This document shows, in pieces, positions 6,945 through 62,779 of a DNA stretch of 64,000 nt (within the stretch, counting starts at the first letter, position 1; every line of letters starts with the position of its first letter). The notes beneath the pieces are model-generated. The model was not told where the DNA came from and searched no databases. It saw nothing but the letters and a program-made list of their open reading frames with translations. The position numbers were made by a program, and so were the translations under genes. The DNA is taken from positions 248,001 through 312,000 of the forward strand of contig QGFZ01000001.1 in the NCBI GenBank assembly GCA_003149065.1, read 5' to 3'. Origin of the DNA: Ruminococcaceae bacterium R-25. Its GTDB lineage: Bacteria > Bacillota > Clostridia > Saccharofermentanales > Saccharofermentanaceae.

Positions 6945-7940
6945 ATGGCAAACAAGCTTTTATCTGCTATTGAAGACGACGTTTTCTTATCAGAAGGATC
7001 GGTACCGATAGTTATCGAAGGCCTTGAACATTCCTACGACAAGGAAGACTTTTTGCCTGACGAGAGTATGCATAACTCTCACGAGCTCCTTTGTCTCCGC
7101 GAAGGCAAGATCGATGCCGTTATCGGCGGCGAGACGATCACGCTCACGAAGGGTTCTGTGGTTGTTATAAGACCTCTTGTAAGACACAAGCTCATGATCA
7201 AGAGCGAAAAGGCCGATATGCTCAATCTCTATTTCGGTTTTGTTCACGATACGTCAGATTTGAAGCTCACTAAGGAATCAGGAAACTCTGCTAAAGGCAA
7301 AGAAACAAAGAACAACAGTGCAGGCCCCAGCGTTTCTATTCCGGGTTCTCTTGCAAAGATTACTCTTGAGAGCTTCCTTAAGTTCGCAGATTTAGGTATC
7401 ACAGAAGATAACGAGATGGTCAGACTTCCTTTCTTTGTCATCAAAGGAAGCGAAAAGAAAGAGATTAACGAGCTTGCAGAGCGCATCGTTGCAGAGAATA
7501 AGGAAAACCGCTATGCAAAAGACCTCATGGTCCATACCCTTACGGTAGAACTCATGATCGTCCTTTCGAGAGCATTAAGAAGCGAATGGGAAGAGAGCTT
7601 GAGCGTTAAGAACGGCAAGGCAAAAGAACTTGTTGCTATCGCCAAGCAGTATATGGATGAGAATTTCGATCAGGGAATCACGGTTTCAGAAGCTGCATCT
7701 TACGTATTCTTGAGCCAGGGTTATTTCACCAGGGCATTCAGGGATGAACTCGGCATCAGCCCTATGAACTATCTCATGAAAAAGAGGATCGAAAAGGCTT
7801 GCAAGCTCCTGCAGAACAATGAGATCAAGGTATCTGCGATCTCTTTGCAGTCGGGCTTCTCATCACCGCAGAGATTTAATGTCGCTTTCAGAAAGCAGAT
7901 GGGTATGACTCCTATGGATTACAGGAAAAAGTACCTTTGA
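6945..7940 (+). CDS. AraC family transcriptional regulator
   Basis: A 331-residue cytoplasmic regulator. Residues 1-110 look like a cupin-type sensor (HSHELLCLREGKI..., TLTKGSVVVIRPLVRH). Residues about 225-331 are the double helix-turn-helix of AraC/XylS: ITVSEAASYVFLSQGYFTRAF, then VSAISLQSGFSSPQRFNVAF, ending in GMTPMDYRKKYL. A linker of about 100 residues joins them. It begins 15 nt after the degenerate esterase-like gene with AGAGGAG before the ATG, and ends 18 nt before folE. Family members with this layout usually sense sugars; a link to the esterase-like protein is likely from position, a link to folate is not. Confidence 0.9.
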   Translation: MANKLLSAIEDDVFLSEGSVPIVIEGLEHSYDKEDFLPDESMHNSHELLCLREGKIDAVIGGETITLTKGSVVVIRPLVRHKLMIKSEKADMLNLYFGFVHDTSDLKLTKESGNSAKGKETKNNSAGPSVSIPGSLAKITLESFLKFADLGITEDNEMVRLPFFVIKGSEKKEINELAERIVAENKENRYAKDLMVHTLTVELMIVLSRALRSEWEESLSVKNGKAKELVAIAKQYMDENFDQGITVSEAASYVFLSQGYFTRAFRDELGISPMNYLMKKRIEKACKLLQNNEIKVSAISLQSGFSSPQRFNVAFRKQMGMTPMDYRKKYL

Positions 7941-7958
7941 GGAAAAGAGGAAAGATAA

Positions 7959-8582
7959 ATGTACGATTACGCTAATGACAATTCAATTCCTGAGGAAAGC
8001 CGCAAGAACATGGATCTCCCCAAGATCGAGAATGCCGTAAGGGAAATTCTTGAAGCGATCGGCGAAGATCCCAACAGGGAAGGCATTCAGGAGACTCCTC
8101 AAAGAGTTGCGAGAATGTATGCGGAAGTTTTCGCAGGCCTTCACAGGGACATCAATAAAGATATCAAGGTCTTCCACGGCGAAGGCAACGACGAGATGAT
8201 CCTTATTGGCGATATCCCGTTCTATTCAATGTGCGAGCATCACCTTCTTCCGTTTCACGGAAAAGCTCATGTGGTCTATATCCCCAGAGACGGCAAGATC
8301 TTCGGCCTTTCAAAGGTTGCGAGGATCGTTGATACATTATCAAGAAAACCCCAGCTCCAGGAAAAGCTCACATCTGAGATCGCAGATGCTATCGAGCAGG
8401 CAGTTGACGCGAGATCAGTCTGCGTTGTATTGGAAGCTGAGCACCTCTGTATGACCATGAGAGGCATAAGAAAGCCGGGTTCAAAGACAGTCACTTCAGC
8501 TATGAGAGGCGGCTGCAGGACCGACTTGAGAACAAGAAACGAAGCCTTAGCGCTCATCAACAGACAACGTTCGGGAATCTAA
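7959..8582 (+). CDS. folE: GTP cyclohydrolase I
   Basis: Converts GTP to 7,8-dihydroneopterin triphosphate, the first step of folate synthesis. The 207-residue length fits the single-domain family. Visible motifs are the zinc/active-site block [37 protein letters not shown], and the C-terminal [17 protein letters not shown], which holds the second zinc cysteine. AGAGG precedes the ATG. It is followed 11 nt later by folP and then folB-folK, so one operon encodes much of the pterin branch. Confidence 0.97.
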
Positions 8583-16596: not shown

Positions 16597-17529
16597 ATGA
16601 AAGTAGTATCAGGCACCAAAGAACATGTCCACTTCCACGAAGCTGACGAGACATACAGATATACGGATATTGTCCTTGAAGCAATGGTCGGATGTATCAG
16701 CATAGTATATGATTACGACAAAGAAAAATATAACTCTGACGACGATGTAAATCTCGCTATTAAGGAAAACTGCACAGCGCTGATTCAGAAGTGCCTTGAT
16801 TCGCTTCCGGAAAACAGATCAGTAATGAAAAGCGATAAGCAGCAGATCGCAGAGAAGTTCGATCAGGAACTCTCTTTGATGGGAATCACAGCCAGCACTC
16901 AAGTAAGGCAGTTTGCGCTTAAAGGTGATTCTAGGGAAATATATGAACGCGCAATGAAAATGGAAGACCTTTGCGGCGCATTGATCACGTCTGATGTCGG
17001 TGATCCCCTTGACGGGCCCATGAAGGCAGCAGGCAAGTACAAAGTCAATTACCCAAAGGGAATGCTGGGCTTTACGTCAGATTTTATATATTATTCACCG
17101 GGTGATAACGTAGTGGTTTCTTTTGATAATGTAATGACTGATACCGTATATGAATTCTTCTGCACCGCTGAAAACTATGAGGTCAAGCGTGATGATTGCG
17201 GTAGGGCAAAGATAATGTTTGTAATGCCTGAACATGATGTCCAGGTCTCAGTCAGCGCCGAGCAGCTAAGATTTGGTCCGACCTCATACGAGAAGACTGA
17301 TAACGGTTTTATGGGCTTTGCCGGGTTTGCAAAGATGATGGAAGACAAAAGATCCGCACCTGTTGAGACTCAGGCTCCCGCAGATTGGTGCTGCCCTAAC
17401 TGCAACGCGGTAAATAAGGGCAGGTTCTGCTCTGAATGCGGTACGCCCAAGCCTTCCGGATGGACATGCGAATGCGGAACCACAAACGCCGGAAAGTTCT
17501 GTGCCAACTGCGGAAAAACGAAGCCATAA
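16597..17529 (+). CDS. Protein with two C-terminal zinc ribbons
   Basis: 310 residues, soluble. Two four-cysteine ribbons close the protein: WCCPNCNAVNKGRFCSECG (about 258-278) and WTCECGTTNAGKFCANCG (about 285-305). The N-terminal half alternates strands and helices (GITASTQVRQFALKGDSREIY) in a way that recalls SPFH-type proteins ending in double ribbons, but I cannot confirm that. The last ribbon matches that of the protein at 35-1186. AAGGAAG lies 8 nt before the ATG. Function unknown; a metal-dependent scaffold or binding role is inference. Confidence 0.75.
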   Translation: MKVVSGTKEHVHFHEADETYRYTDIVLEAMVGCISIVYDYDKEKYNSDDDVNLAIKENCTALIQKCLDSLPENRSVMKSDKQQIAEKFDQELSLMGITASTQVRQFALKGDSREIYERAMKMEDLCGALITSDVGDPLDGPMKAAGKYKVNYPKGMLGFTSDFIYYSPGDNVVVSFDNVMTDTVYEFFCTAENYEVKRDDCGRAKIMFVMPEHDVQVSVSAEQLRFGPTSYEKTDNGFMGFAGFAKMMEDKRSAPVETQAPADWCCPNCNAVNKGRFCSECGTPKPSGWTCECGTTNAGKFCANCGKTKP

Positions 17530-17629: not shown

Positions 17630-17658
17630 TTGAAATGCAAAATGTGATGTGTTACTAT
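17630..17658 (+). promoter_or_regulatory. Promoter of the 17710 gene
   Basis: TTGAAA (17630-17635), 17-nt spacer, TACTAT (17653-17658). It shows that the in-frame ATG at 17635 lies inside the promoter and is not the start. Confidence 0.65.
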
Positions 17659-17709
17659 ACAACCATCGGGGAGACCTGGGAACAAATACATTTTGAGGGG
17701 GATATCATA

Positions 17710-18462
17710 ATGCAGGACAGTAATTCATTAATAATGCTTGCATCTCTGGGTGTAATGACCTGCGCTTTAGTCTGGCTGATCATATCAATAGTATTGACGG
17801 CTAAAGGCAAGAAGAAAAACATAATAGGTATCATTGCAGGTGCAATACTCTGCGTTGGAGGCTTATATTTCTTCGCTTCTTCATTGCTTGTTAAGGCTGT
17901 TGATTATGGCGCAAAAGCGGTTGACTCAATGACGGCTAAATTCACTGTAGATCCTGAATCCAAACCAATCTCAGGAACGCTTATGATAAATGATACCGAG
18001 ATCAAACTTCCGTGTACTGTCGGTGATCTGAAGAAAAACGGTTTGGCTGCAAGCAATGCATGGGATGGCGAAGAGCTATATCTGTGGCCCGAAGATAATG
18101 TAAACGGAAGAAACGGAACTCCGTGTTTCTGCGCTTACAGACAGAAGGCTTCGGAGGGGGAAGAATCAGCAGAAGTAAAAGACAGTGATGTAATCGTTGC
18201 CTTATATTTCCCGGCTGACAAGGAACTGGAGTTCAAATACTCTGAAATCAAATATTACATTCCGTTGGACGATTTCCAGAAGAAATACGGAAAGGCAGCT
18301 TACAACATTAACGATACTTATCGTGGCGTCAGGCTCTTTTATTTAGGAGATAACGATCTCATTGTCGAAGTAACTTTTACTCCGAGTAGCCGAGTGCTAG
18401 ACGGATTTATGATAGGTACATCTGAATATATGAAAAAGGATGCTACAAAGATCAGATTCTAA
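17710..18462 (+). CDS. Two-helix membrane protein of unknown function
   Basis: 250 residues. Two hydrophobic helices near the N-terminus (about 6-30 and 36-60) flank a basic loop, KGKKKN, which should be cytoplasmic; the remaining 190 residues would follow the second helix on the outside or as a peripheral domain. The soluble part has no motif I recognise. GAGGGGG lies about 8 nt before the ATG at 17710; the longer reading from 17635 overlaps the promoter. It is a single gene with its own promoter. Confidence 0.7.
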   Translation: MQDSNSLIMLASLGVMTCALVWLIISIVLTAKGKKKNIIGIIAGAILCVGGLYFFASSLLVKAVDYGAKAVDSMTAKFTVDPESKPISGTLMINDTEIKLPCTVGDLKKNGLAASNAWDGEELYLWPEDNVNGRNGTPCFCAYRQKASEGEESAEVKDSDVIVALYFPADKELEFKYSEIKYYIPLDDFQKKYGKAAYNINDTYRGVRLFYLGDNDLIVEVTFTPSSRVLDGFMIGTSEYMKKDATKIRF

Positions 18463-18474
18463 TCTCCGTTTTAT

Positions 18475-18508
18475 GGCAACTCATGTATCTTAAACGGCAA
18501 CTCGCGTA
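18475..18508 (+). promoter_or_regulatory. Direct repeats, candidate LytTR operator
   Basis: GGCAACTCATGTA (18475-18487) and GGCAACTCGCGTA (18496-18508) match at 11 of 13 positions and start exactly 21 bp apart, two helical turns. This spacing is typical of LytTR-domain regulator sites, and the operon just downstream encodes one (20115). An ACCGTTGAA half-site resembling the LytTR consensus follows at about 18512. Binding is inference. Confidence 0.5.
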
Positions 18509-18575
18509 AAGCACCGTTGAATGCTCCTTTGGACTTTGTTAGTTTTGTGCCAGCAAAGAACAAAGGAGTTTTGAC

Positions 18576-19439
18576 ATGATCAGTGCAAACGGAATATGCA
18601 AGAGTTTTGCTGACAAAGAGGTCCTCTCAGGTATTGATCTTGATATCAAGCCCGGCAAGATCTTCGGCCTTTTAGGACCTTCAGGAGCCGGTAAGACAAC
18701 GCTCATAAAGATAATCACAGGACAACTCGGGTACGATAAAGGCGAGATCAATGTGCTCGGAAAACCCGTTAATGAACTTACAGGAAACGACAAAAAGCAG
18801 ATCGGCATCATGATGGATGATCACGGCGTGTATGACAGGTTATCCTGCATGGACAACCTTAAGATATTCGCCGATATCTACGGCGTTCCTTATTCTGAGA
18901 TTGGAAAAGCTCTTAAGGAAGTAGGTCTTGAAGATGCCGCGAAAAAGCCGGCGATGAAATTATCCAAAGGCATGCGCGCAAGGCTCCAGCTCGCAAGAGT
19001 CTTCATGATCCGTCCGAAGATCTTATTTCTTGATGAACCTACGAGCGGCCTCGACCCCATGACAATGAAATATATCCATAAGCTCATTACATCCCGGAGA
19101 GATGAGGGCTGCACGGTCTTTCTTACTACGCACAACATGGAAGAAGCAACAGTGCTCTGTGATGAGGTCGCGCTCCTGAATGAGGGAAAGATCGTTGACC
19201 GCGGAGCACCGGCTGAGATATGCAGAAGATATAACCATCAGAAGACGATCAATATCCATCTCAAAACAGGTGAGGATATATCTTTCGCGCATGGCGTTGA
19301 ATCTGCAGAAAAGATCAGCAGCCTTATTAAGCAGGGAAAGGTTGAGACGATACATTCTTCTGAACCTACCTTGGAGACCGTGTTCATTGAACTGACAGGA
19401 AGAAAGCTCGAAGCGGAAGAGGAGATCAGATATGCATAA
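18576..19439 (+). CDS. ABC transporter ATP-binding protein
   Basis: 287-residue ATPase. Walker A GPSGAGKTT (K40), signature LSKGMRARLQLAR, Walker B ILFLDEPTSGLDP, and the H-loop TTHNMEEA. The C-terminal 70 residues are an accessory region typical of exporters of the multidrug/lantibiotic type. AGGAG lies 7 nt before the ATG. It overlaps the permease gene by 8 nt and shares an operon with a LytTR regulator and a DUF3021 protein. Substrate unknown; export of a drug, peptide or lipid is the usual role. Confidence 0.93.
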   Translation: MISANGICKSFADKEVLSGIDLDIKPGKIFGLLGPSGAGKTTLIKIITGQLGYDKGEINVLGKPVNELTGNDKKQIGIMMDDHGVYDRLSCMDNLKIFADIYGVPYSEIGKALKEVGLEDAAKKPAMKLSKGMRARLQLARVFMIRPKILFLDEPTSGLDPMTMKYIHKLITSRRDEGCTVFLTTHNMEEATVLCDEVALLNEGKIVDRGAPAEICRRYNHQKTINIHLKTGEDISFAHGVESAEKISSLIKQGKVETIHSSEPTLETVFIELTGRKLEAEEEIRYA

Positions 19440-20118
19440 TGTCGGCGTTATTTTCAAAAAACAGCTTAAGGATACATTGAAGAACAAGACTGTTCTTATC
19501 CAGTTCATTATGTTCCCGTTAATGACTCTCATAATGGAGCATGCGATATCACTTCCGGACATGCCGGAACTGTTCTTTACGAAGCTCTTTTCGGTAATGT
19601 ATATGGGAATGGCGCCGATGACATCAGCTGCAGCCATCATCTCGGAAGAGAAAGAGAAGAACACATTAAGAGCTCTCATGATGGCTAATGTTAAACCGTG
19701 GGAATATCTTCTCGGTGTCGGCGCTTATGTCTGGACTCTCTGCATGGCAGGTGCGGGAATTATGGCGACAGGTCTTCCGGCATCGGATGTTCCGTTCTAT
19801 CTTGGTGTTATGGCAGCAGGCTTTGTGATCTCCATCTCTTTGGGTGCATGCATCGGTATCTTTTCATCAAACCAGATGACTGCGACATCGCTCTTTGTAC
19901 CTGTAATGCTTGTTTTCTCGTTTTCGCCCATGCTTGCGATGTTCAATGATAAAATAGAAAAGGTCGCCAGGATCTTTTATACGCAGCAGCTGCGTGTCCT
20001 GATGAACCGGATGTCTTTCGAAGGAATAAAGCCGGAGAGCATAATGATCCTTATTGTTAATGCAGTGTTGGCCATAGCGCTCTTCTTTGTGGCTTTCAAG
20101 CGAAAAGGACTTGAATGA
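19432..20118 (+). CDS. ABC-2 type transporter permease
   Basis: 228 residues, six hydrophobic segments. After a cytoplasmic start (VIFKKQLKDTLKNKTVLIQF) come the ABC-2 landmarks ISEEKEKNTLRALMMANVKPWEYLLG before the central helices. Length and layout fit half-transporter permeases that pair with the preceding ATPase. The coding regions overlap by 8 nt, and the stop overlaps the LytTR start (ATGA). Confidence 0.88.
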   Translation: MHNVGVIFKKQLKDTLKNKTVLIQFIMFPLMTLIMEHAISLPDMPELFFTKLFSVMYMGMAPMTSAAAIISEEKEKNTLRALMMANVKPWEYLLGVGAYVWTLCMAGAGIMATGLPASDVPFYLGVMAAGFVISISLGACIGIFSSNQMTATSLFVPVMLVFSFSPMLAMFNDKIEKVARIFYTQQLRVLMNRMSFEGIKPESIMILIVNAVLAIALFFVAFKRKGLE

Positions 20119-20558
20119 TGAAGATCAATCTTGACATAGACGGCAAATACGATGACACCGAAGTCATTATCCGCGCGCCGCATCTGAACAACGACATCGA
20201 GAGGATAGTCGCGATGATGCGCATGATCGACATGCAGATCGCAGTGCGCCGCGACAATGAGACTTATCTCCTGGAGACGGATAAGATCCTTTATGTGGAA
20301 GCGGTGGACAGGAAGACTTTCGTATATACAAATGCCGATACATACGAATCAGAATTAAAGCTTTATGAACTTGAGCAGCAGCTTGTTGAACGTGATTTCT
20401 TAAGGATCAGCAAGCAGAGCCTCGTGAACTTAAGGAAGATAAAGAGCCTTAAGACAGACGTTAACCGCAAGATCAGGATCACTTTGCAGAACGGCGAACA
20501 GATAGTCGTATCGCGCATGTATTCTGATGAGCTCAGAAGAAAGTTGGGGTTAAGATAA
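20115..20558 (+). CDS. LytTR-domain DNA-binding regulator
   Basis: 147 residues with no receiver domain. The C-terminal 95 residues are a LytTR domain: LLETDKILYVEAVDRKTFVYT, LEQQLVERDFLRISKQSLVN, and a closing block with SRMYSDELRRKLGL. LytTR proteins bind direct repeats about 21 bp apart and often control their own operon. Such repeats are found at 18475-18508. It overlaps the permease by 4 nt and the DUF3021 gene by 1 nt. A second copy of this pair is at 60739-61627. Confidence 0.92.
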   Translation: MMKINLDIDGKYDDTEVIIRAPHLNNDIERIVAMMRMIDMQIAVRRDNETYLLETDKILYVEAVDRKTFVYTNADTYESELKLYELEQQLVERDFLRISKQSLVNLRKIKSLKTDVNRKIRITLQNGEQIVVSRMYSDELRRKLGLR

Positions 20559-21022
20559 TGGAAGAAAGAAAAAGTGTTTTCGAATATATAAAAGAACTCT
20601 TTACCTGCTACGGAATAGTTATATTGATCTTCATAGCGATCAACTTTTTTATCGGTGATGAGGCAGGAACTGTATCAACATTATTTGCTCTGGGCTCCAA
20701 GGGCCTCTCGTCAGCAATGCTCCTTCAGCTGTTCCTGATGGGTGTTATTACCACGATCGCACAGAATATCTTCCTGACGGATCTTCTGATAAAGAACATG
20801 TCTCTGATCGTAAGGCATATCCTGTTCTTCATGACTCTCATGTTAGCGATAATTGTTTTCGCAGTATGCTTTGGATGGTTCCCTCTGAACGATCCCGCTG
20901 CATGGATCGGATTCATAGTATCGTTTTCTGTATGTTCGGTAATGAGCGCATTTATCATGAGGCTGGAAGAGAAAGCAGAGAACAAGAAGATGCAGGAAGC
21001 ACTTAACAGACTGAAGAAATAA
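20558..21022 (+). CDS. DUF3021 family membrane protein
   Basis: 154 residues with four membrane helices and a charged C-terminal tail (RLEEKAENKKMQEALNRLKK). DUF3021 proteins are encoded next to stand-alone LytTR regulators and are thought to control them as membrane inhibitors; this position fits. Last gene of the operon that starts at 18576. No clear terminator follows. Confidence 0.85.
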   Translation: MEERKSVFEYIKELFTCYGIVILIFIAINFFIGDEAGTVSTLFALGSKGLSSAMLLQLFLMGVITTIAQNIFLTDLLIKNMSLIVRHILFFMTLMLAIIVFAVCFGWFPLNDPAAWIGFIVSFSVCSVMSAFIMRLEEKAENKKMQEALNRLKK

Positions 21023-21077
21023 GGGCTTTATAAGGTCGACTCTTTTCGAAAAATCCCCCACAAAATAAAAATATTTG

Positions 21078-21083
21078 TATAAT
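21078..21083 (+). promoter_or_regulatory. -10 box upstream of the zinc-ribbon paralogue array
   Basis: TATAAT preceded directly by TTG, about 63 nt before the first gene of the array. No -35 match is visible 16-18 nt upstream. The leader contains CCGG-TTCATT-CCGG. No similar promoter lies between the four genes, so they are likely one transcript. Confidence 0.5.
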
Positions 21084-21146: not shown

Positions 21147-22679
21147 ATGGCATTGCTTAAAAGTTATTCCTGCGTTAAGTGCGGGGGTGTCCTGAATTTC
21201 GATGAGAATCAGGAAGTATTCGGTTGTCCTTTCTGCGGCGGCGAATTTGCATTTACGGATTTCCACAGAGGAGATCTGATCAGACAGGGAAATATCAGCC
21301 TTAACAGAGGCAACTATTCTACTGCAAAAGATAAATTTCAGGCGATACTTAACAGGAATCCCAGAGACTTTGAAGCTCTTCAGGGTATGATCCTTGCTGA
21401 AGGCAGGATCACTGCTGTAAACAGACTTTGCAGGATCGAGTATCTGGAAGATTCGGATCTTAAAGCCGCGATCTATGCTGCTAAGAAAGCAGGGGAGGCC
21501 CTGCCGGAAGAAAACGAGTATTTCGGTCTGCTTGTCAGGATGTTTGAAATTGCCCGTGATTATTTAGAGAGCGGTGCTGAAGCAAATGAGGCTTCAGAAA
21601 AACAAAACATGCATTTCAGAAACATGAGCTATCAGATCATGAGTGTCGAAGAGGAGGAGGAAGCTACTTTCGACGGGTATAAGAAGGCCCTCGGAATCTT
21701 AGCTTCAAGATTCCTGCCTGTCATATTTGCTGTTTCGCTCGTATTTCAGATGTGGTGGATAACCATTGCTTTTGTTGTGATCGTCGCAATCGTCGGCATT
21801 TGCATGAAGGTCCATTATGCTTCTGCGAAAAAGAATATTGAAACGAGTCTCGATGATAAGATGAAGACCCAATTCAAGATAGATGATGCGGCAGTCGCCA
21901 AGATGAAGGAAACCAGACATGAGTACATGAATACATATATCAAGCTCAAGAAGATCGTTCCTGATCCCAAGGCTTATGAGAAACCCTTGCCGCAGCCAAA
22001 GCATGATAATTCAGTCGTAAATGATCCTTTCATCGATATTGAGAAGACTGTCATCTGCAATAAGTGCGGCGGCCTTTTGACTCTGGATAAAGAGAAGAAT
22101 CTTTACGAGTGCAGATCATGCGGCGTTGCTTATGGTGCTTCGCTGTTCTTCGGCAATCCTTTTGAGAAGGCGAAAAAAGCGATCGAGGAGAACGATTTTG
22201 CTGAAGCAGATCAGAGGTTCTCTCATATGCTGATGACCGATCCTAAGTCCTTTGATGCGCTGCTTGGAAGGATACTTTGTGCCGGAAGATGGAAGACCGT
22301 CAGTGAGATCAATCTGACTGACCTCGCCGTCTCGGATGTCAGATTGAATAATATCATGGAACGTGCTGATGATGCCGTTTCCCATGCTGTCGAAGAGGAT
22401 AAGCCCATTTTTGAAGATATCCGCAAACTGGCCGTATTTTATATTGATTATGTGAAGGCCACACAGGCAGCTAATGTCTTCAGCAGCAAGCTTGAATACA
22501 TTTCGAAGAACAGACTGACGTTCCTCAAGAACAATGATGATTCCGAACTTAAGAATCAATCTGTTTACATAAAGTGGAGAAAAGAAGAACTTTTGAAAAA
22601 GCATAATGCAAAGACCGGATTTGATGAGCTGAAAGCAAAGGTCGTAACAGATTACCGCAAACGCACATTCATAAGATGA
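21147..22679 (+). CDS. Double zinc-ribbon, TPR-like membrane protein, paralogue 1
   Basis: 510 residues. N-terminal ribbon with C9, C12, C27 and C30 (CVKCGGVLNFDENQEVFGCP). Then a TPR-like helix pair (NYSTAKDKFQAILNRNPRDFEALQG), a two-helix membrane hairpin at about 188-222, and a second ribbon at about 303-325 (CNKCGG...YECRSCG). A second TPR-like pair follows (DFAEADQRFSHMLMTDPKSFDALLGRILC). The protein is thus two copies of a ribbon-plus-TPR unit on either side of a membrane hairpin, with both halves expected in the cytoplasm. First of four tandem paralogues and the most divergent. The first ribbon resembles proteins labelled TFIIB-type zinc ribbon; the function is unknown. Confidence 0.8.
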   Translation: MALLKSYSCVKCGGVLNFDENQEVFGCPFCGGEFAFTDFHRGDLIRQGNISLNRGNYSTAKDKFQAILNRNPRDFEALQGMILAEGRITAVNRLCRIEYLEDSDLKAAIYAAKKAGEALPEENEYFGLLVRMFEIARDYLESGAEANEASEKQNMHFRNMSYQIMSVEEEEEATFDGYKKALGILASRFLPVIFAVSLVFQMWWITIAFVVIVAIVGICMKVHYASAKKNIETSLDDKMKTQFKIDDAAVAKMKETRHEYMNTYIKLKKIVPDPKAYEKPLPQPKHDNSVVNDPFIDIEKTVICNKCGGLLTLDKEKNLYECRSCGVAYGASLFFGNPFEKAKKAIEENDFAEADQRFSHMLMTDPKSFDALLGRILCAGRWKTVSEINLTDLAVSDVRLNNIMERADDAVSHAVEEDKPIFEDIRKLAVFYIDYVKATQAANVFSSKLEYISKNRLTFLKNNDDSELKNQSVYIKWRKEELLKKHNAKTGFDELKAKVVTDYRKRTFIR

Positions 22680-22689
22680 GGAAGCAGAA

Positions 22690-24225
22690 ATGGCAATGTT
22701 AAAGAGTTATACATGTTCAAAATGTGCAGGCGTCCTGCTTTTTGATTCCGATCAGGAGTTCTTTGACTGTCCTTTCTGCGGAACAAAATTCAGTGCTGCT
22801 GATTTCCATGGTAATGAGATCATGGATCAGGCAAAAGAATGCCAGAGAAAGCGGTCTTTCGATGCGGCAAAAGAGAAATACTATGCCGTGCTTGAGAATG
22901 ATCCTGATAACTTCGATGCACATTTGGGAATTGTACTTTGCGAGCTGAAGGTGATTTCGGTTGATGATCTCAAAGACCGCAAAGTCTTGGACGGCAAGGA
23001 ACTGACAAATGCCAGAAGAGCTCTCATGAGCGCGAAAAGGCAGCTCCATAAAGACCAGGCAGCATATTTCAACAAGATAAACGATCTTGTCAATATTCAG
23101 GTAAAGATTAACAGATTTGAGAATGAGAAAAACGAACTTCTGAAATCAGAAGAAGCACAGGATATGATCAACAGGAAGCTCCTTGAGATTCACCAGGAGC
23201 AAAGGTCAAATGACAGGTATGAACTGCTTAAAGGGTGGCCTGTGGTATTGATCCTTCTTCCTTTTTTAGCATTGACCGAGCTCTTTGAAAATCCTGCGAC
23301 TATAGCTATCTTTTTTGTAACCCTTGTTGGTATCGTTATCCTCGTGATAGTAGGTGTTAACCGCAGTGACGAGGAAGAAGACGAGCAATATAAGCCTGCT
23401 CTTTATATTGAGCGTAGCCTTAAGGGAAAGATAATGGAATTAGATAGAAACTATAATGCTGAATACCGTAAACTGGACGGCTTATATCCTAAACTTCCGG
23501 AGAGTAAGAATACCCGGAGCGAACAGGCTGAGACTAAAGAGAACAGTTCTGTATCTGACAGCGATATAAAGACCGATGAGATGATCATCTGCTCGAAATG
23601 CGCTGCAAAGCTTTTTCTCGATAAGAAAAAGCGAGTTTACGAGTGTGACCACTGCGGCGTGGCTTACGGCGTGTCACTGTTCTTTGGAATGCCGATGGAA
23701 AAGGCCCTTAATTCAATTAATACAGGTTTTTACGGTGATGCCGAAAAGAGATTTGACAGCATTCTCATGGTGCATCCTTCTGATTTCGAAGCAAATCTCG
23801 GCCGCATCCTTTGCGAAGGCAGATGGTCGAAGATAAGTGATATCGACCTTACAGACGATGTCTCTCCTTCCAGAGTAAAAGAGATCAAGCAGAGGATCGC
23901 TGATGCTTCGCAGCACACCTCATTTGAGAACAAGCCGTATTTTGAGAATCTGAATAAACTGATTGCTTTGTTCGAAACTTATTCAACTAACAGCCGGATG
24001 CTCGACGTGATCAATAATGCGGTCGAAGAGTTTGATGCGAAAACTGAAGTGTTCTCGATGGCATTTTCAGGTCCTGATTTCAGGGAAAAGAGTGAAGCCG
24101 AGAGAAAATCTATCATAAGCAGATCATATGCTTACCAGGCTCAAAATAAGAAGATTACTGCAGATTTTTCGACCCTTCGCAAAACTATCATTGATATGAG
24201 AAGCGATTCGCCACTGACTAAGTGA
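22690..24225 (+). CDS. Double zinc-ribbon, TPR-like membrane protein, paralogue 2
   Basis: 511 residues with the layout of paralogue 1: ribbon CSKCAGVLLFDSDQEFFDCP, TPR-like FDAAKEKYYAVLENDPDNFDAHLG, membrane hairpin at about 178-220, second ribbon CSKCAAKLFLDKKKRVYECD, then YGDAEKRFDSILMVHPSDFEANLGR. A charged Glu-rich segment separates the hairpin from the second ribbon. It starts 10 nt after paralogue 1. Its last nine codons (MRSDSPLTK) are the same as those of paralogue 3, and the DNA there is nearly identical too. Confidence 0.8.
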   Translation: MAMLKSYTCSKCAGVLLFDSDQEFFDCPFCGTKFSAADFHGNEIMDQAKECQRKRSFDAAKEKYYAVLENDPDNFDAHLGIVLCELKVISVDDLKDRKVLDGKELTNARRALMSAKRQLHKDQAAYFNKINDLVNIQVKINRFENEKNELLKSEEAQDMINRKLLEIHQEQRSNDRYELLKGWPVVLILLPFLALTELFENPATIAIFFVTLVGIVILVIVGVNRSDEEEDEQYKPALYIERSLKGKIMELDRNYNAEYRKLDGLYPKLPESKNTRSEQAETKENSSVSDSDIKTDEMIICSKCAAKLFLDKKKRVYECDHCGVAYGVSLFFGMPMEKALNSINTGFYGDAEKRFDSILMVHPSDFEANLGRILCEGRWSKISDIDLTDDVSPSRVKEIKQRIADASQHTSFENKPYFENLNKLIALFETYSTNSRMLDVINNAVEEFDAKTEVFSMAFSGPDFREKSEAERKSIISRSYAYQAQNKKITADFSTLRKTIIDMRSDSPLTK

Positions 24226-24279
24226 TCTTGGGGGAGATTAAGATGGCAATACTTAAGAGCTATACATGTTCAAAGTGCG
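24196..24279 (+). repeat. Junction repeat between paralogues 2 and 3
   Basis: 84 nt covering the end of paralogue 2, the stop, the GGGGGAG ribosome binding site and the first 12 codons of paralogue 3. It is nearly identical to 25779-25863: I see one single-base insertion and one substitution. Confidence 0.85.
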
Positions 24280-25808
24280 CGGGCGTCCTGAACTTCGATT
24301 CTGATCAGGAGTTTTTTGAATGTCCGTTCTGCGGTACGGCGTTTGATGTGCTGGATTTCCATGGCGATGAAGTAATGGAGCAGGCCAGATCCTTGCTTAA
24401 GAACGAGTCTTTCGATGCGGCCAGGGAGAAATACAAAGCCATTTTGAAATATAACCCCAAAAACTTTGAAGCGAATCTGGGAGTTGTTCTTTGTGATCTT
24501 AAGGTCACTTCTGCAGACAGGCTGGAATTCCCCGATCTCCTTCCTGAATATGATGTTGTTAATGTCAGAAAATCGATCCTGAAGGCGAAGAGGAATACCG
24601 GTAAGAACGGATCTTCATACTTTGGAAAGATGTATGAACTTATCTCTGTCAAAGAGGATGTGGCCAGGCTCCGGAAAGAGGAATCCGAACTGTCATCTGA
24701 ACAGATCGGACGTAAGGTAAACGATAAGCTCGTTGAGGATTATAAGACTACGAGAACTATAAACAGAAGCAGTACGGTTCCCGTGATCCTTTCATGGGTG
24801 GCTATTGCCGTCATGCTCCTGGTAATGCTCGGGATGAACGGGAAATTTGACGATGAAAAGTCATTGCTTGTACCGTTTCTGGTTCCGCTCGCAGTCGTGG
24901 CTATCATCATTATTTTTATGGTCATTGTGGATAAAATACATGACCGGGATTTTAAACCCGTTGATGATATTACAAATTCTTTCAGTGGCAGGATAAAAGA
25001 GAGATTTAACAGATACGATGAAGAATACCGTAAGATGAGAACTCTTTATCCGACTGCGGAAAAGAAACGCAAGATCCAAGATCAGGAGAGCGTTGTTTCC
25101 GGCAAAGAGAGTGCTTCTTTGAAGGAACCGCAAATCGATTACAGTAATATAGATCCTTCCGAGATCGTTATTTGTTTGAAGTGTGCTGCCAGACTGACTT
25201 TGAATAAAGATAAGCGTGTCTATCAGTGTGACCACTGCGGTGTTGCATACGGCATCTCGCTGTTCTTCGGCATTCCTATGGAAAAGGCTCTGAATTCGCT
25301 TAATACAGGTTTTTACGATGATGCCAACCAGAGATTCGGCAGCATCCTTATGGTACATCCGTCTGATTTTGAAGCGCTTCTCGGTCGCGTCCTCTGCGAG
25401 GGTGGATGGACTAAGATCAGTGATATCGATCTTACTGATGATGTTGACGTATCTAGCTATAAAGCAGTCAGGAGACGTTTGGGAGAGGCAAAAGAGCATG
25501 CATCTGTACATAATGTGCCTTTTTTCGAGAACGTCGAAAAGATGGTCGGCTATTGCGAAGAGTACAAGAGAAACATGCAAAAGATCAATGAGAACGAACT
25601 CGAGGTCAAAGCTTTTGACGCCGGTACAGCAGTGATGGATGTTGCTTTCCATGGCAAGGATTTCAGCATCGAAAGGGAACAGAAGAGAACTAAGCTCCTC
25701 AGCGAGGCTTACCCGTACCGGGTAAGCAATAAGAAGATCGAAGCAGAATTCTCAAAAATGCGCGATCATATCCTTGGTATGAGAAGCGATTCGCCACTGA
25801 CTAAGTGA
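24243..25808 (+). CDS. Double zinc-ribbon, TPR-like membrane protein, paralogue 3
   Basis: 521 residues. Ribbon CSKCAGVLNFDSDQEFFECP, TPR-like FDAAREKYKAILKYNPKNFEANLG, membrane hairpin at about 175-225, second ribbon CLKCAARLTLNKDKRVYQCD, then YDDANQRFGSILMVHPSDFEALLGR. Closest relative in the window is paralogue 2. The ATG at 24243 has GGGGGAG 6 nt upstream; an in-frame GTG at 24222 overlaps the end of paralogue 2 and is not used here. Function unknown, as for the other copies. Confidence 0.8.
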   Translation: MAILKSYTCSKCAGVLNFDSDQEFFECPFCGTAFDVLDFHGDEVMEQARSLLKNESFDAAREKYKAILKYNPKNFEANLGVVLCDLKVTSADRLEFPDLLPEYDVVNVRKSILKAKRNTGKNGSSYFGKMYELISVKEDVARLRKEESELSSEQIGRKVNDKLVEDYKTTRTINRSSTVPVILSWVAIAVMLLVMLGMNGKFDDEKSLLVPFLVPLAVVAIIIIFMVIVDKIHDRDFKPVDDITNSFSGRIKERFNRYDEEYRKMRTLYPTAEKKRKIQDQESVVSGKESASLKEPQIDYSNIDPSEIVICLKCAARLTLNKDKRVYQCDHCGVAYGISLFFGIPMEKALNSLNTGFYDDANQRFGSILMVHPSDFEALLGRVLCEGGWTKISDIDLTDDVDVSSYKAVRRRLGEAKEHASVHNVPFFENVEKMVGYCEEYKRNMQKINENELEVKAFDAGTAVMDVAFHGKDFSIEREQKRTKLLSEAYPYRVSNKKIEAEFSKMRDHILGMRSDSPLTK

Positions 25809-25863
25809 TCTTTGGGGGAGGTTAAGATGGCAATACTTAAGAGCTATACATGTTCAAAGTGCG
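25779..25863 (+). repeat. Junction repeat between paralogues 3 and 4
   Basis: 85 nt, the partner of 24196-24279, in the same position relative to the genes on each side. Confidence 0.85.
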
Positions 25864-27344
25864 GCGGCATCCTGAATTTCGATTCCGATCAGGAATTCTT
25901 CGACTGCCCTTTCTGCGGCAATAAATTTGACATCGTGGATTTCCACGTGGATGAGATCATGTCACAGGCTGAAGAGAGTTTGAAGCAGGAGGCATTTTCT
26001 TCTGCCAAGGAGAAGTTCTTTTCCATTTTGGATAAGGACCCCGCAAATTTTGAAGCGCTTAAAGGTCTTATCTTATGTGAGCTCAAATCACCGGCATTGG
26101 GAAACCTCAGTACACCCGGCATTTTTGATTCTGTTGACGTTGATTCTCTGAAGAAACTTATCAGCATGGCGAAAAAGCAGGATCCTGATGATGCAGAATT
26201 CTTTAACAAGATATTGGTCCTGCGAGATCTCAGCGACAAATTGAAAGGATTTAAGTACAGAAGCGAGGCGCTTACTTCAGAAAGTACAAGAAATGCAGTT
26301 GACACCGGCTTGGCTAAAGCGAGACAAAGAAGGATAGAAGAAGCCAAAGACGATTTCCATTTCGGATATGTTTTTTGTATTGTCGGCGTTATTATAGGAA
26401 CTTTGATAATCTGCCATGACGAAGACTGGATCGGCTTGGGAGTTCTTATCATGATGGTTGGCGCGATCGCTGCTATGGTTGCGGAGGCTTCGCATAAAGA
26501 AGAGGTTTTTAAGGCTAATCCGAAGCGGAATGCCTGGGAAATGAAAAGTCAAATGGATAGCGAGTACAACCGTTATAAGAAAATGTACGGTACGGAATTC
26601 AACAAGATCCTAGAGATGAACCGCACCAAGAAAAAAGAAAGAACCGAAACATCGAATCCTGTTGAAACTGCAAATGAACCATGCGTTATTGATACAGAAC
26701 ATCAGGAGACTGTCATTTGTTCTAAATGTGCCGCACAGCTCTATCTTGATAAGGAAAGAAGAGTTTACGAGTGCAAGTCCTGCGGCGTGGCATATGGAAT
26801 ATCCCTTTTCTTCGGAATGCCTTTTGAGAAAGCTCTGAATTCCATGAATATCGGTAATTACGGAGATGCTGAAAAGCGATTCGAAAATATCCTTATGGTC
26901 GAGCCCTCAAGTTTTGAAGCTCTTTTAGGTCAGATCCTTTGCGTGGGCAGGTGGTCCAGGGTAAGTGATATTGCCTTTACCGATGTGATAAGCAAAGAGG
27001 ATTCTTCTAAATTCCGCAGCTTATTCAGTGATGCCAAAGAGCGTTTAACTGAAGCTGATAAGGTGTTTTTTGAAAAGTTTGAAGAACTTCTGGCAATGCT
27101 CGAAAAGATCAGTACCAACAGCGCAAGACTTGGTGAGCTGAAAAAAGAAAACGAAAAGCTCGAATCAGATAAGCGAGTCCGAGCCATGGCTGAAGCAAGT
27201 ACTTACGGCAATTGGCGTGAAATGAAAAATATCAATGATGAAATCGAGCAATTGGAAAAAGATAACAGGCAGCTGAATCATGACTTCCTTGCGCTTAAGA
27301 GGGAACTTGTGAAAATGAAGCTCGACTGTGTGCTCGTCAAATAA
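25827..27344 (+). CDS. Double zinc-ribbon, TPR-like membrane protein, paralogue 4
   Basis: 505 residues. Ribbon CSKCGGILNFDSDQEFFDCP, TPR-like FSSAKEKFFSILDKDPANFEALKG, membrane hairpin FGYVFCIVGVIIGTLIICHD and following helix (about 170-215), second ribbon CSKCAAQLYLDKERRVYECK, then YGDAEKRFENILMVEPSSFEALLGQ. It differs from copies 2 and 3 by ending in a longer charged coiled coil (ELKKENEKLES..., NDEIEQLEKDNRQL). Start is the ATG at 25827 with GGGGGAGG upstream. Last gene of the array. Confidence 0.8.
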   Translation: MAILKSYTCSKCGGILNFDSDQEFFDCPFCGNKFDIVDFHVDEIMSQAEESLKQEAFSSAKEKFFSILDKDPANFEALKGLILCELKSPALGNLSTPGIFDSVDVDSLKKLISMAKKQDPDDAEFFNKILVLRDLSDKLKGFKYRSEALTSESTRNAVDTGLAKARQRRIEEAKDDFHFGYVFCIVGVIIGTLIICHDEDWIGLGVLIMMVGAIAAMVAEASHKEEVFKANPKRNAWEMKSQMDSEYNRYKKMYGTEFNKILEMNRTKKKERTETSNPVETANEPCVIDTEHQETVICSKCAAQLYLDKERRVYECKSCGVAYGISLFFGMPFEKALNSMNIGNYGDAEKRFENILMVEPSSFEALLGQILCVGRWSRVSDIAFTDVISKEDSSKFRSLFSDAKERLTEADKVFFEKFEELLAMLEKISTNSARLGELKKENEKLESDKRVRAMAEASTYGNWREMKNINDEIEQLEKDNRQLNHDFLALKRELVKMKLDCVLVK

Positions 27345-33103: not shown

Positions 33104-33179
33104 GGAAGCTTAGCTCAGCTGGGAGAGCATCTGCCTTACAAGCAGAGGGTCACAGGTTCGAGCCCTGTAGTTTCCACCA
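33104..33179 (+). tRNA. tRNA-Val (anticodon UAC)
   Basis: 76 nt including encoded CCA. Acceptor GGAAGCT with AGTTTCC (one G-T pair), D-arm TAGCTCAGCTGGGAGAGC, anticodon loop CTTACAA (TAC), T-arm CAGGTTCGAGCCCTG. Confidence 0.95.
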
Positions 33180-33186
33180 ATGGTAC

Positions 33187-33264
33187 GGCGCAGTAGTTCA
33201 GCCTGGTTAGAATGCCAGCCTGTCACGCTGGAGGTCGAGGGTTCGAGCCCCTTCTGCGTCGCCA
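33187..33264 (+). tRNA. tRNA-Asp (anticodon GUC)
   Basis: 78 nt including encoded CCA. Acceptor GGCGCAG with CTGCGTC (one G-T pair), anticodon loop CTGTCAC (GTC), T-loop GTTCGAGCC. 7 nt after tRNA-Val. Confidence 0.95.
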
Positions 33265-33270
33265 TTAACT

Positions 33271-33304
33271 TTAGGCCGAACACTTTATAAGGTGTTCGGC
33301 CTAA
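33271..33304 (+). other. Perfect 13-bp hairpin between tRNA-Asp and tRNA-Phe
   Basis: TTAGGCCGAACAC (33271-33283) pairs with GTGTTCGGCCTAA (33292-33304), 8-nt loop, no T-tract after it. Could be a processing signal, a weak terminator that lowers tRNA-Phe output, or an imperfect terminator of the first two tRNAs. Confidence 0.7.
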
Positions 33305-33309
33305 CTCTT

Positions 33310-33385
33310 GCTCAGATAGCTCAGTCGGTAGAGCAGGGGACTGAAAATCCCCGTGTCGGCAGTTCGATTCTGTCTCTGAGCACCA
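33310..33385 (+). tRNA. tRNA-Phe (anticodon GAA)
   Basis: 76 nt including encoded CCA. Acceptor GCTCAGA with TCTGAGC, D-arm TAGCTCAGTCGGTAGAGC, anticodon loop CTGAAAA (GAA), T-loop GTTCGATTC. Confidence 0.95.
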
Positions 33386-61705: not shown

Positions 61706-62779
61706 ATGAAAAATAAGAGAGTTTTATGCCTGGTACTTGCGGCTGCATTCCTTTTGACAGGATGCAATGTTGGCAAGGCTGAAACAACAGAACAGACGGT
61801 TTTAAGCGGTGTTGCCGGACAGACGGCGACATCTGACGTAACAGAAACCTCTGTAACGGAAACTACGGCTTCCGAACCCTTTGAATTCAATCCGCATGTA
61901 TATTCAAGAAAAATCGCAGAAAGGGTCCCTCAGGATTACTGGAATTCATTCTATAATCTTTGCGATGCCTTGAGAAAAGGCGAGGATACATTCCAATGTT
62001 CAAGTCAGGAAGCCTATAACTGGGCTACTGACGTGGGTGTATTATGTGATCTTTTCCCGCCGGCAGGTGCGAAGATAGAAGGAAAGAGCACCGACGGTTC
62101 TCCTGCTTTCGAGAACGGAACAGGAAAGATCCTTTATAAAATGCCTGTTGAAGATTTTCTCAAGAGAGAATCTGATTTTGAAGTCCTGATAACGGATATC
62201 CTTAACAGCACGATAGAGAAAGACGACTCGGAATATGAGAGAGCCCTTAAGCTGTATCTTTACGTGGCGAAGAACTATGTTTACGATACCTCGCTCATAG
62301 ATAAAATGGGTGATGATGAGAACTATGTATATGCGTGTTTCATGGAGAAGAGGGGACAGTGCGTTAATTTCGCTTCTGTCTATGCCTATCTTCTCCTTCA
62401 GGCTGATATCGATGCAGTAAGTTACCGCATCTACGAGGATCTTTGCCATGCCTGGACATATGCCGTGATAGACGGCAAGGGATATCATATCGATACCACC
62501 TGGGCGCTTCAGGCTGACGGAGCAGACGGTATCTACCTGGATTATTTTATGATGAGTGACAAGGAAAGGATCGCTGACGGATGCACGTTAACTGATCCTG
62601 ATGTAACTCTGCTGCCCGAATGCAATGTGAATAAGACCAATGTTAAGTTCGAAGCGACTGATGATCATTACTGCATCAGGGATTACTGCAGATTCGTGTC
62701 TCTTGATGAAGAGAAGAAGATCGTTCACTATGTAACCATGTATGATGAACAAAAAGAATTCTACTACGGGGATATTTGA
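61706..62779 (+). CDS. Lipoprotein with transglutaminase-like domain, paralogue 1
   Basis: 357 residues. Lipoprotein signal with lipobox LLTGC (C20), a Thr/Glu-rich linker to about residue 55, then a transglutaminase-like cysteine protease fold. The catalytic triad is visible: C219 in RGQCVNFASVYAYL, H248 in CHAWTY, D263 in HIDTTW. Such exported proteins may cross-link or cleave wall or surface proteins. It is followed 22 nt later by a close paralogue of equal length. Confidence 0.88.
   Translation: MKNKRVLCLVLAAAFLLTGCNVGKAETTEQTVLSGVAGQTATSDVTETSVTETTASEPFEFNPHVYSRKIAERVPQDYWNSFYNLCDALRKGEDTFQCSSQEAYNWATDVGVLCDLFPPAGAKIEGKSTDGSPAFENGTGKILYKMPVEDFLKRESDFEVLITDILNSTIEKDDSEYERALKLYLYVAKNYVYDTSLIDKMGDDENYVYACFMEKRGQCVNFASVYAYLLLQADIDAVSYRIYEDLCHAWTYAVIDGKGYHIDTTWALQADGADGIYLDYFMMSDKERIADGCTLTDPDVTLLPECNVNKTNVKFEATDDHYCIRDYCRFVSLDEEKKIVHYVTMYDEQKEFYYGDI

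Follow-up and report, generated by a model that had tools for sequence, protein, structure and literature searches.

Four paralogous genes follow one another at positions 21,147 to 27,344 of a 64,000-nucleotide stretch of the genome of Ruminococcaceae bacterium R-25 (contig QGFZ01000001.1, positions 248,001 to 312,000 of the forward strand; hereafter the window). Each encodes a protein with two units, made of a zinc ribbon and helices resembling tetratricopeptide repeats (TPRs), and a membrane hairpin. Are the four products, named P1 to P4 in array order, dedicated parts of one membrane assembly, as a first-pass annotation made from the sequence alone had suggested, or variants of one protein that happen to be kept together here? 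Copy number, subtype phylogeny and exchange between species point to the second answer. Our preferred reading, tentative and short of an even chance, is that P1-P4 are a diversifying, largely interchangeable set of docking adaptors, tethered to the membrane and serving an envelope or defense network with links to SPFH proteins.

Architecture of the four proteins

All four genes lie on the forward strand: P1 at 21147..22679 (510 residues), P2 at 22690..24225 (511 residues), P3 at 24243..25808 (521 residues) and P4 at 25827..27344 (505 residues). P3 and P4 are counted here from the ATG codons at 24243 and 25827, the GTG/TTG starts in the list of open reading frames (ORFs) lying 21 and 15 nt further upstream. 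The gaps between successive genes are 10, 17 and 18 nt, so that the coordinates bear out the earlier description of four same-strand genes of 505-521 residues separated by 10-18 nt. The proteins are 33-47% identical in pairwise comparisons and share one architecture, a unit with a membrane hairpin followed by a unit without membrane segment. None of them obtained a family-level name from Pfam or NCBIfam, and PADLOC gave none for the two proteins scanned.

Both four-cysteine ribbons are intact in P1-P4, the first near residues 9-30 and the second near residues 300-332. In P3 they correspond to C9, C12, C27 and C30 (24267..24332, forward strand) and to C311, C314, C329 and C332 (25173..25238, forward strand), all of which are invariant in the 61 rows that we picked for alignment A2, and the AlphaFold model places strands at both of these predicted zinc ribbons. 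The first-pass annotation had likened the N-terminal ribbon to the TFIIB type. The likeness stands as far as the profile matches of P1-P4 do include RPB9 and TFIIB ribbons, but these are all below the Pfam cut-offs, which none of the listed ribbon models reaches in P1-P4. Such matches might be taken to indicate a membrane-tethered transcription regulator built on a TFIIB-like ribbon. We regard this as very improbable, because these ribbon families are generic, because neither a DNA-binding domain nor a cyclin-like core is found among the listed Pfam matches, and because duplicated TPR-like units are present instead. The listed fold matches of the P3 units are mainly TPR and coiled-coil proteins.

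The internal duplication noticed at first sight is far above chance expectation. Alignments of one half with the other score 128-154 (mean of the shuffles 28-30, standard deviation about 5, maximum of 500 shuffles 51-63), and hhalign joins the profiles of unit 1 and unit 2 at 99.8% over 143 columns. The AlphaFold models of P3 (61 rows, pLDDT 82.8, pTM 0.57) and of its C-terminal half alone (76 rows, pLDDT 92.4, pTM 0.85) give the two halves the same order of elements, namely a ribbon, three helices, one more helix and a long helical hairpin. In unit 2 of the model (residues 304-521 of P3) this hairpin (helices 425-465 and 472-513) is shorter and lacks a membrane segment. In unit 1 it is a long coiled coil (helices 153-199 and 210-236) whose tip is the membrane hairpin of P3 (residues ~176-228; 24768..24926, forward strand), and hydropathy places a hydrophobic hairpin near the same residues in all of P1-P4. 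The membrane hairpin foreseen by the annotation is thus present, but the P3 model makes it a part of unit 1 and not a linker between the two units. As to the C-termini, P2 and P3 end identically (MRSDSPLTK), the P3 model ends in a helical hairpin, and the C-terminus of P4, to which a coiled coil had been attributed, has weak matches of coiled-coil type only.

The regions that follow the ribbons do resemble TPRs, as had been proposed, at a level of similarity that is common among helical folds. TPR_16 matches 22 of the 61 members at E<=1e-3, and P3 itself scores 32.2 bits for a cut-off of 32.7; in none of P1-P4 does a TPR model attain its Pfam cut-off. VIA-align superimposes residues 35-139 of the P3 model on SycD 4am9 (Z 9.8, root-mean-square deviation 2.1, 88 residues aligned) and residues 343-440 on SycD 2vgy (Z 9.8, root-mean-square deviation 2.5, 82 residues aligned), and its list of matches contains SycD, MamA and other TPR proteins with Z values of 9-10, and also coiled-coil proteins. 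Since these Z values are usual for helical repeats, we only claim that the regions are TPR-like. The co-chaperone and adaptor domains of SycD, MamA, Sgt1 and Tom70 share such helices with P1-P4 (Z ~8.5-10 over ~80-110 residues), but they lack the ribbon and are anchored to the membrane otherwise, and the likeness is at the level of the fold. With Foldseek nothing reached E<=0.001, whether the whole P3 model was compared with Protein Data Bank (PDB) structures or the C-terminal half with PDB and viral structures, and the PDB entries retrieved by sequence were TPR consensus proteins and unconvincing helical matches.

The distribution of charges around the hairpin gives its probable orientation. 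Among 82 family rows, eight had no clear hairpin by the threshold used; lysine and arginine are richer in the flanks than in the loop of ~10 residues in 67 of the remaining 74, and the reverse occurs in 3 of the 74. This pattern places both units in the cytoplasm, and we predict that both units of P1-P4 face this compartment.

Copy number and subtypes at the trmN6-rsmI locus

The array stands before trmN6-rsmI, and we compared it with other loci having the same context, 17 in total and 16 distinct (L083 and L118 are the same; L-numbers denote fetched loci and G-numbers genomes). There are four copies only here, three in L058 and L072, two in L057, L060, L061 and L096, at least two in L059, and one in the nine others; in L058 and L059 the array begins close to the end of a contig and could extend further. 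Two or more copies are thus found at 8 of the 17 loci, and family genes elsewhere are mostly single.

A quick maximum-likelihood tree of 82 rows (ORFs of 440-700 residues with both units, excluding fragments and split pairs) assigns the four genes to different subtypes. P1 (subtype A) groups with the first genes of other arrays. P2 (subtype B) groups with the single-copy genes of L062, L063 and L064, where it is the lone copy at the trmN6-rsmI locus, and P3 (subtype B') with the second genes of L057-L061. P4 (subtype C) groups with the third gene of L058 and the first gene of L072, and then with a wider clade that includes the sole gene of L083/L118. By these groupings across loci, P1-P4 are old subtypes that occur in changing combinations.

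How do these data bear on the initial idea of a single hetero-oligomeric membrane assembly in which each of P1-P4 is a dedicated subunit? The tight packing of the genes on one strand, with gaps of 10-18 nt, fits it, as does the retention in this genome of four distinct and long-separated subtypes, and the P1 clade (6 rows) was not seen alone at the locus. Yet, the subtypes are not kept together across species at the 17 loci: copy number varies between one and four, composition differs among species, genes of the P2 clade and of the wider P4 clade stand alone at the trmN6-rsmI locus elsewhere, and individual subtypes have been exchanged independently (see below). These observations weaken the proposal of an obligate assembly, which we now consider improbable.

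Exchange between species

Between the source genome and G019, whose contig is that of L057, the number of synonymous substitutions per synonymous site (dS) is 0.12 for P1 and 0.15 for P3. A further 47 ORFs of the window have their best match within 100 kb of G019 sequence; their median dS is 1.22, and only three of these 47 have dS <0.3: the DUF3021 gene adjoining the array, an antisense ORF judged spurious by us, and the gene that occupies 61706-62779. Nucleotide identity to G019 is 74-85% upstream, 90-98% across P1 and P3, and 72-83% just downstream. Similar patterns occur between L060 and L061 for the P1 type (dS 0.03, flank 0.97) and between L059 and L060 for the P3 type (dS 0.08, flank 1.10), two cases that both involve L060. 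The opposite pattern was found between L057 and L059, with a flank dS of 0.38 and a P3-type dS of 0.99. There are 134 pairs of loci with flank dS >0.5. In 11 of them, some with saturated flank values, the dS of the closest family pair was under half that of the flank; in the other 123 it was not.

On this evidence P1 and P3 appear to have recombined between species, independently of most flanking genes. Strong codon constraint might also produce low dS, and we rejected it because the same genes are near-saturated between other pairs of species. No family member was found in the phages, plasmids or viral contigs that were searched; lacking such a carrier, ordinary homologous recombination is the likely route of exchange.

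Away from the array, the 357-residue gene at window positions 61706-62779 has a dS of 0.23 to G019 and neighbors with values near 1-3, and may perhaps also have been exchanged recently.

Distribution and forms of the family

The P1-P4 family is restricted to one lineage and two genera. A search profile of 14 members (E<=1e-10) finds it in 81 of the 188 genomes of the order, which represent 2 of its 30 genera; 397 other genomes taken as a sample of the phylum gave no match. With the limit at E<=1e-20, the genus has 54 matching genomes out of 85. The closest named locus belongs to the 'Ruminococcaceae' metagenome-assembled genome (MAG) RUG11004, 91% to P3, and many others are labeled Saccharofermentans. 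The source genome is the richest in matches, with 16 (the next genomes have 12, at most 17 candidates being scored per genome), and encodes at least 14 family ORFs.

Some of these depart from the architecture of P1-P4. The source genome includes a variant of 449 residues without hairpin (L041), single-unit proteins of ~300 residues (L042, L043) and a protein of 608 residues with two hairpins (L044). The single-unit proteins have unit 1 and the membrane hairpin of P1-P4, but lack unit 2. In L040, an adjacent gene pair encodes unit 1 with its hairpin and unit 2 separately. This separate-gene form was found in six fetched loci (L040, L112, L124, L127, L129, L131), and its hydrophobic segments are confined to the first partner. 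Three paralogs (L159 6523-8271, L039 6296-8242, L120 6001-7860) show weaker matches to one more unit beyond unit 2, so that the number of units may range from one to three. Similar-looking two-helix membrane proteins with a common PISGT...LPCTV stretch, recognized by eye, lie near family genes at L040 7971-8750 and at window positions 17635-18462.

The neighborhoods of single genes vary. With gene names assigned by eye, a single-copy family gene lies immediately upstream of ylxM-ffh in L066, L067, L068, L069 and L071, and a family gene follows larB-larC in L078, L080 and L084. The former five loci could hint at a factor of protein targeting, working with the signal recognition particle or the translocon, and SRP72 TPRs are among the fold matches. 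Still, the ylxM-ffh neighborhood is not family-wide and the fold matches are those of generic TPRs, which makes this function highly unlikely.

A related module in TIR proteins and the link to SPFH genes

Relatives of unit 1 outside the genus suggest a context for the family. When 291 genomes of the class were searched with the first unit of P3, 45 had matches, 39 of them outside the genus. We fetched loci from 14 of these 39, chosen mainly for coverage of both ribbon and TPR, most others matching the ribbon only; the family profile spans ribbon and TPR in 12 of the 14, and only the ribbon in L154 and L155. The outside relatives are mostly of 530-1256 residues and sometimes in tandem. Their module aligns with that of the P1-P4 family in hhalign at 98.7% (E 4e-16, 121 columns, comprising the N-terminal four-cysteine ribbon, the TPR and the next helix). 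Pfam TIR_2 was identified in 10 of the 12 scanned ribbon-TPR proteins, and an SPFH gene within the fetched stretch at 11 of the 14 loci, two of the three exceptions lying on contigs that measure 3.3 and 5.5 kb. Part of the SPFH profile came from these outside loci themselves, and Pfam Band_7_1 directly confirms three of the genes, plus one within the genus.

These ribbon-TPR-TIR proteins are akin to P1-P4 in the shared module, in being sometimes tandem and in having, for many, a membrane segment. They differ in the presence of TIR at ~158-282, in having usually one membrane segment, often followed by DUF6273, RCC1 or leucine-rich repeats (LRR), or by WG repeats in L151, and in a second profile match near 320-410 that lacks a ribbon. 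No TIR match is listed for P1-P4, nor among the families listed for the 61 members. Ribbon-TPR-TIR-TPR proteins, some of them tandem, lie near SPFH genes at L145 7274-16518, L149 6941-9139, L157 1101-3731 and L151 4704-7085; most have a single membrane segment followed by BspA-type LRR with Flg_new repeats, by RCC1 or by DUF6273, and the one of L151 has WG repeats and no segment in the scan. Their predicted layout is receptor-like, with a cytoplasmic TIR. The glutamate of a GxxYE stretch, which we take to be the putative NADase glutamate by analogy with SARM1, is aligned in 28 of 28 rows, a few of which lack a Pfam TIR match.

Could the array then be a repertoire facing phages or other elements, made of recognition proteins that are tethered to the membrane on its cytoplasmic side and have diversified through birth-and-death and recombination? 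Copy number is variable, exchange occurs at a fixed locus, and the ratio of non-synonymous to synonymous substitution rates (dN/dS), although drawn from few substitutions, is 0.28 for P1 and 0.33 for P3, above the 0.05-0.11 of nine neighbors. The homologous module also heads TIR proteins with a glutamate at the putative catalytic place in every row. But we found no effector domain in P1-P4; PADLOC, run on two window proteins, gave short partial matches, the best being PDC-M14A over residues 26-69 (E 1e-5); and the named neighbors are housekeeping genes, the flanks not having been searched for defense systems. We consider such a defense repertoire unlikely.

Within the genus, the family is present in 30 of the 33 genomes with a close SPFH gene and in 24 of the 52 without one (Fisher p 2e-5, kinship being ignored by the test), and in 20 of 21 versus 13 of 28 genomes when completeness is at least 90%. 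Starting from SPFH genes instead, we fetched loci from 20 genomes among the 62 of the order that are SPFH-positive, with distant SPFH types over-represented; a ribbon-TPR gene was found within a few genes in 10 of the 20.

TPRs are protein-docking repeats. If the ribbon-TPR units are docking sites, as we propose for P1-P4, each protein would expose a pair of docking modules at the cytoplasmic side of the membrane. In other Clostridia this module stands at the N-terminus of TIR proteins whose genes lie near SPFH/band-7 genes, and on that ground the likeliest partner would be a membrane platform of the SPFH type, or the clients of such a platform, within a network for envelope stress or defense. 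The four copies would then be a diversified repertoire, possibly differing in client specificity, and not obligate subunits of one complex. By sequence comparison, their subtypes are gained, lost and exchanged among species at one chromosomal locus.

Several observations weigh against this scheme. The SPFH type that co-occurs with the family differs from the one that has ribbon-TPR neighbors: the close type had no ribbon-TPR gene beside it in any of six loci (L178, L179, L184-L187), and the distant type, which has adjoining ribbon-TPR genes, is accompanied by the family in no more than 2 of 7 genomes. The co-occurrence test makes no correction for kinship. No SPFH gene adjoins the array; the three Band_7_1 genes of the source genome lie elsewhere, and the stretch fetched around each of them has no ribbon-TPR gene. 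In L168 the SPFH protein of the source genome (8037-9353) is preceded by a ribbon-membrane protein of 274 residues (7193-8017). There is no constant neighbor across paralogs, and the shared module may be a mere common order of ribbon and TPR. The P1 clade was never seen alone at the trmN6-rsmI locus, which fits poorly with interchangeable copies. Finally, the dN/dS values of P1 and P3 are uncertain for the reason given above, and most relatives are MAGs, in which strain mixing or chimerism could mimic some exchanges.

A known SPFH system offers another explanation. In Bacillus subtilis, the membrane foci of the SPFH protein YdjI and of PspA depend on the membrane proteins YdjG and YdjH, both required for the membrane recruitment of YdjI and PspA (PMC8581546). 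P1-P4 might similarly anchor an SPFH/PspA-type envelope-stress complex. Like YdjG, encoded in the pspA-ydjGHI operon, they are membrane proteins with an N-terminal TFIIB-style ribbon and a possible SPFH context (PMC8581546 and PMC11237479), and their ribbon aligns in hhalign at 97.1% with a profile of relatives judged YdjG-like, B. subtilis YdjG itself not being among them. However, the homology ends after the ribbon, at 38 columns; YdjG is described as having two adjacent ribbons and an NTF2/YpeB-like domain (PMC11237479), whereas P1-P4 have one N-terminal ribbon and then TPR-like helices. Neither pspA, ydjH nor ydjI is among the mapped neighbors, and the YdjG-type operon is absent around the array, whose immediate neighbors are the ABC-LytTR-DUF3021 genes and trmN6-rsmI. 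An anchor doing the job of YdjG is therefore decidedly unlikely.

Upstream neighborhood of the array

We treat the genes preceding the array as a separate system. Two 9-bp direct repeats (18475 and 18496), with starts 21 bp apart, 12 bp between them and one mismatch, stand before an ABC ATPase gene; three overlapping matches were found for 0.03 expected from shuffles. The first part of the operon (18475..20118, forward strand) comprises these repeats, the ABC ATPase (18576-19439, assigned by eye from its P-loop and signature motifs) and a permease (19432-20118, assigned by Pfam). It is followed on the forward strand (20115..21022) by a LytTR regulator (20115-20558) and a DUF3021 membrane protein (20558-21022), the direct neighbors of the array. 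The ABC-permease-LytTR-DUF3021 genes (18576-21022) fit LytTR regulatory systems as described in PMC6193735. Before P1, at 21076..21083 on the forward strand, we read by eye a -10-like element, TGTATAAT, whose GTATAAT is kept in 10 of 13 aligned leaders; a consensus scan did not flag it. We considered co-transcription of the array with the LytTR operon and set it aside, because the -10-like element is kept and the LytTR repeats precede the ABC gene and not P1. The array is probably a transcription unit of its own, with its own promoter.

Further upstream, window positions 16597-17529 and L061 294-1226 encode a protein of 310 residues with two C-terminal ribbons (284 of 310 residues identical), absent from the syntenic place in L057. 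Its interpretation as a decayed SPFH protein is unproven, the SPFH profile match being confined to the terminal ribbons (E 0.03). Rfam matches between 13000 and 34000 are three tRNAs only, at 33104-33382.

Conclusions

Titles and abstract openings on ribbon and TPR, TFIIB-type ribbons, or TIR and SPFH, in a literature coverage that excludes most subscription papers, contained no description of the P1-P4 family nor of the ribbon-TPR-TIR proteins. P1-P4 thus apparently form an undescribed protein family, in line with the initial remark that no function was on record for this architecture.

One could go further and see in the array a recombining chromosomal repertoire of intracellular membrane-tethered recognition proteins, which would share a ribbon-TPR docking code with SPFH-linked TIR receptors, act in an innate-immunity-like or envelope-surveillance role, and have their specificity reshuffled between rumen species by single-gene exchange. 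We give this bolder view a low probability. Three features, namely the occurrence of the two units as separate neighboring genes, the transfer of individual subtypes between species and the SPFH/TIR context, each provide a direct experimental handle on proteins that are unnamed in the family libraries searched. The family also defines a reusable ribbon-TPR module which, with or without a membrane hairpin or TIR, appears to link several uncharacterized membrane systems of Clostridia.

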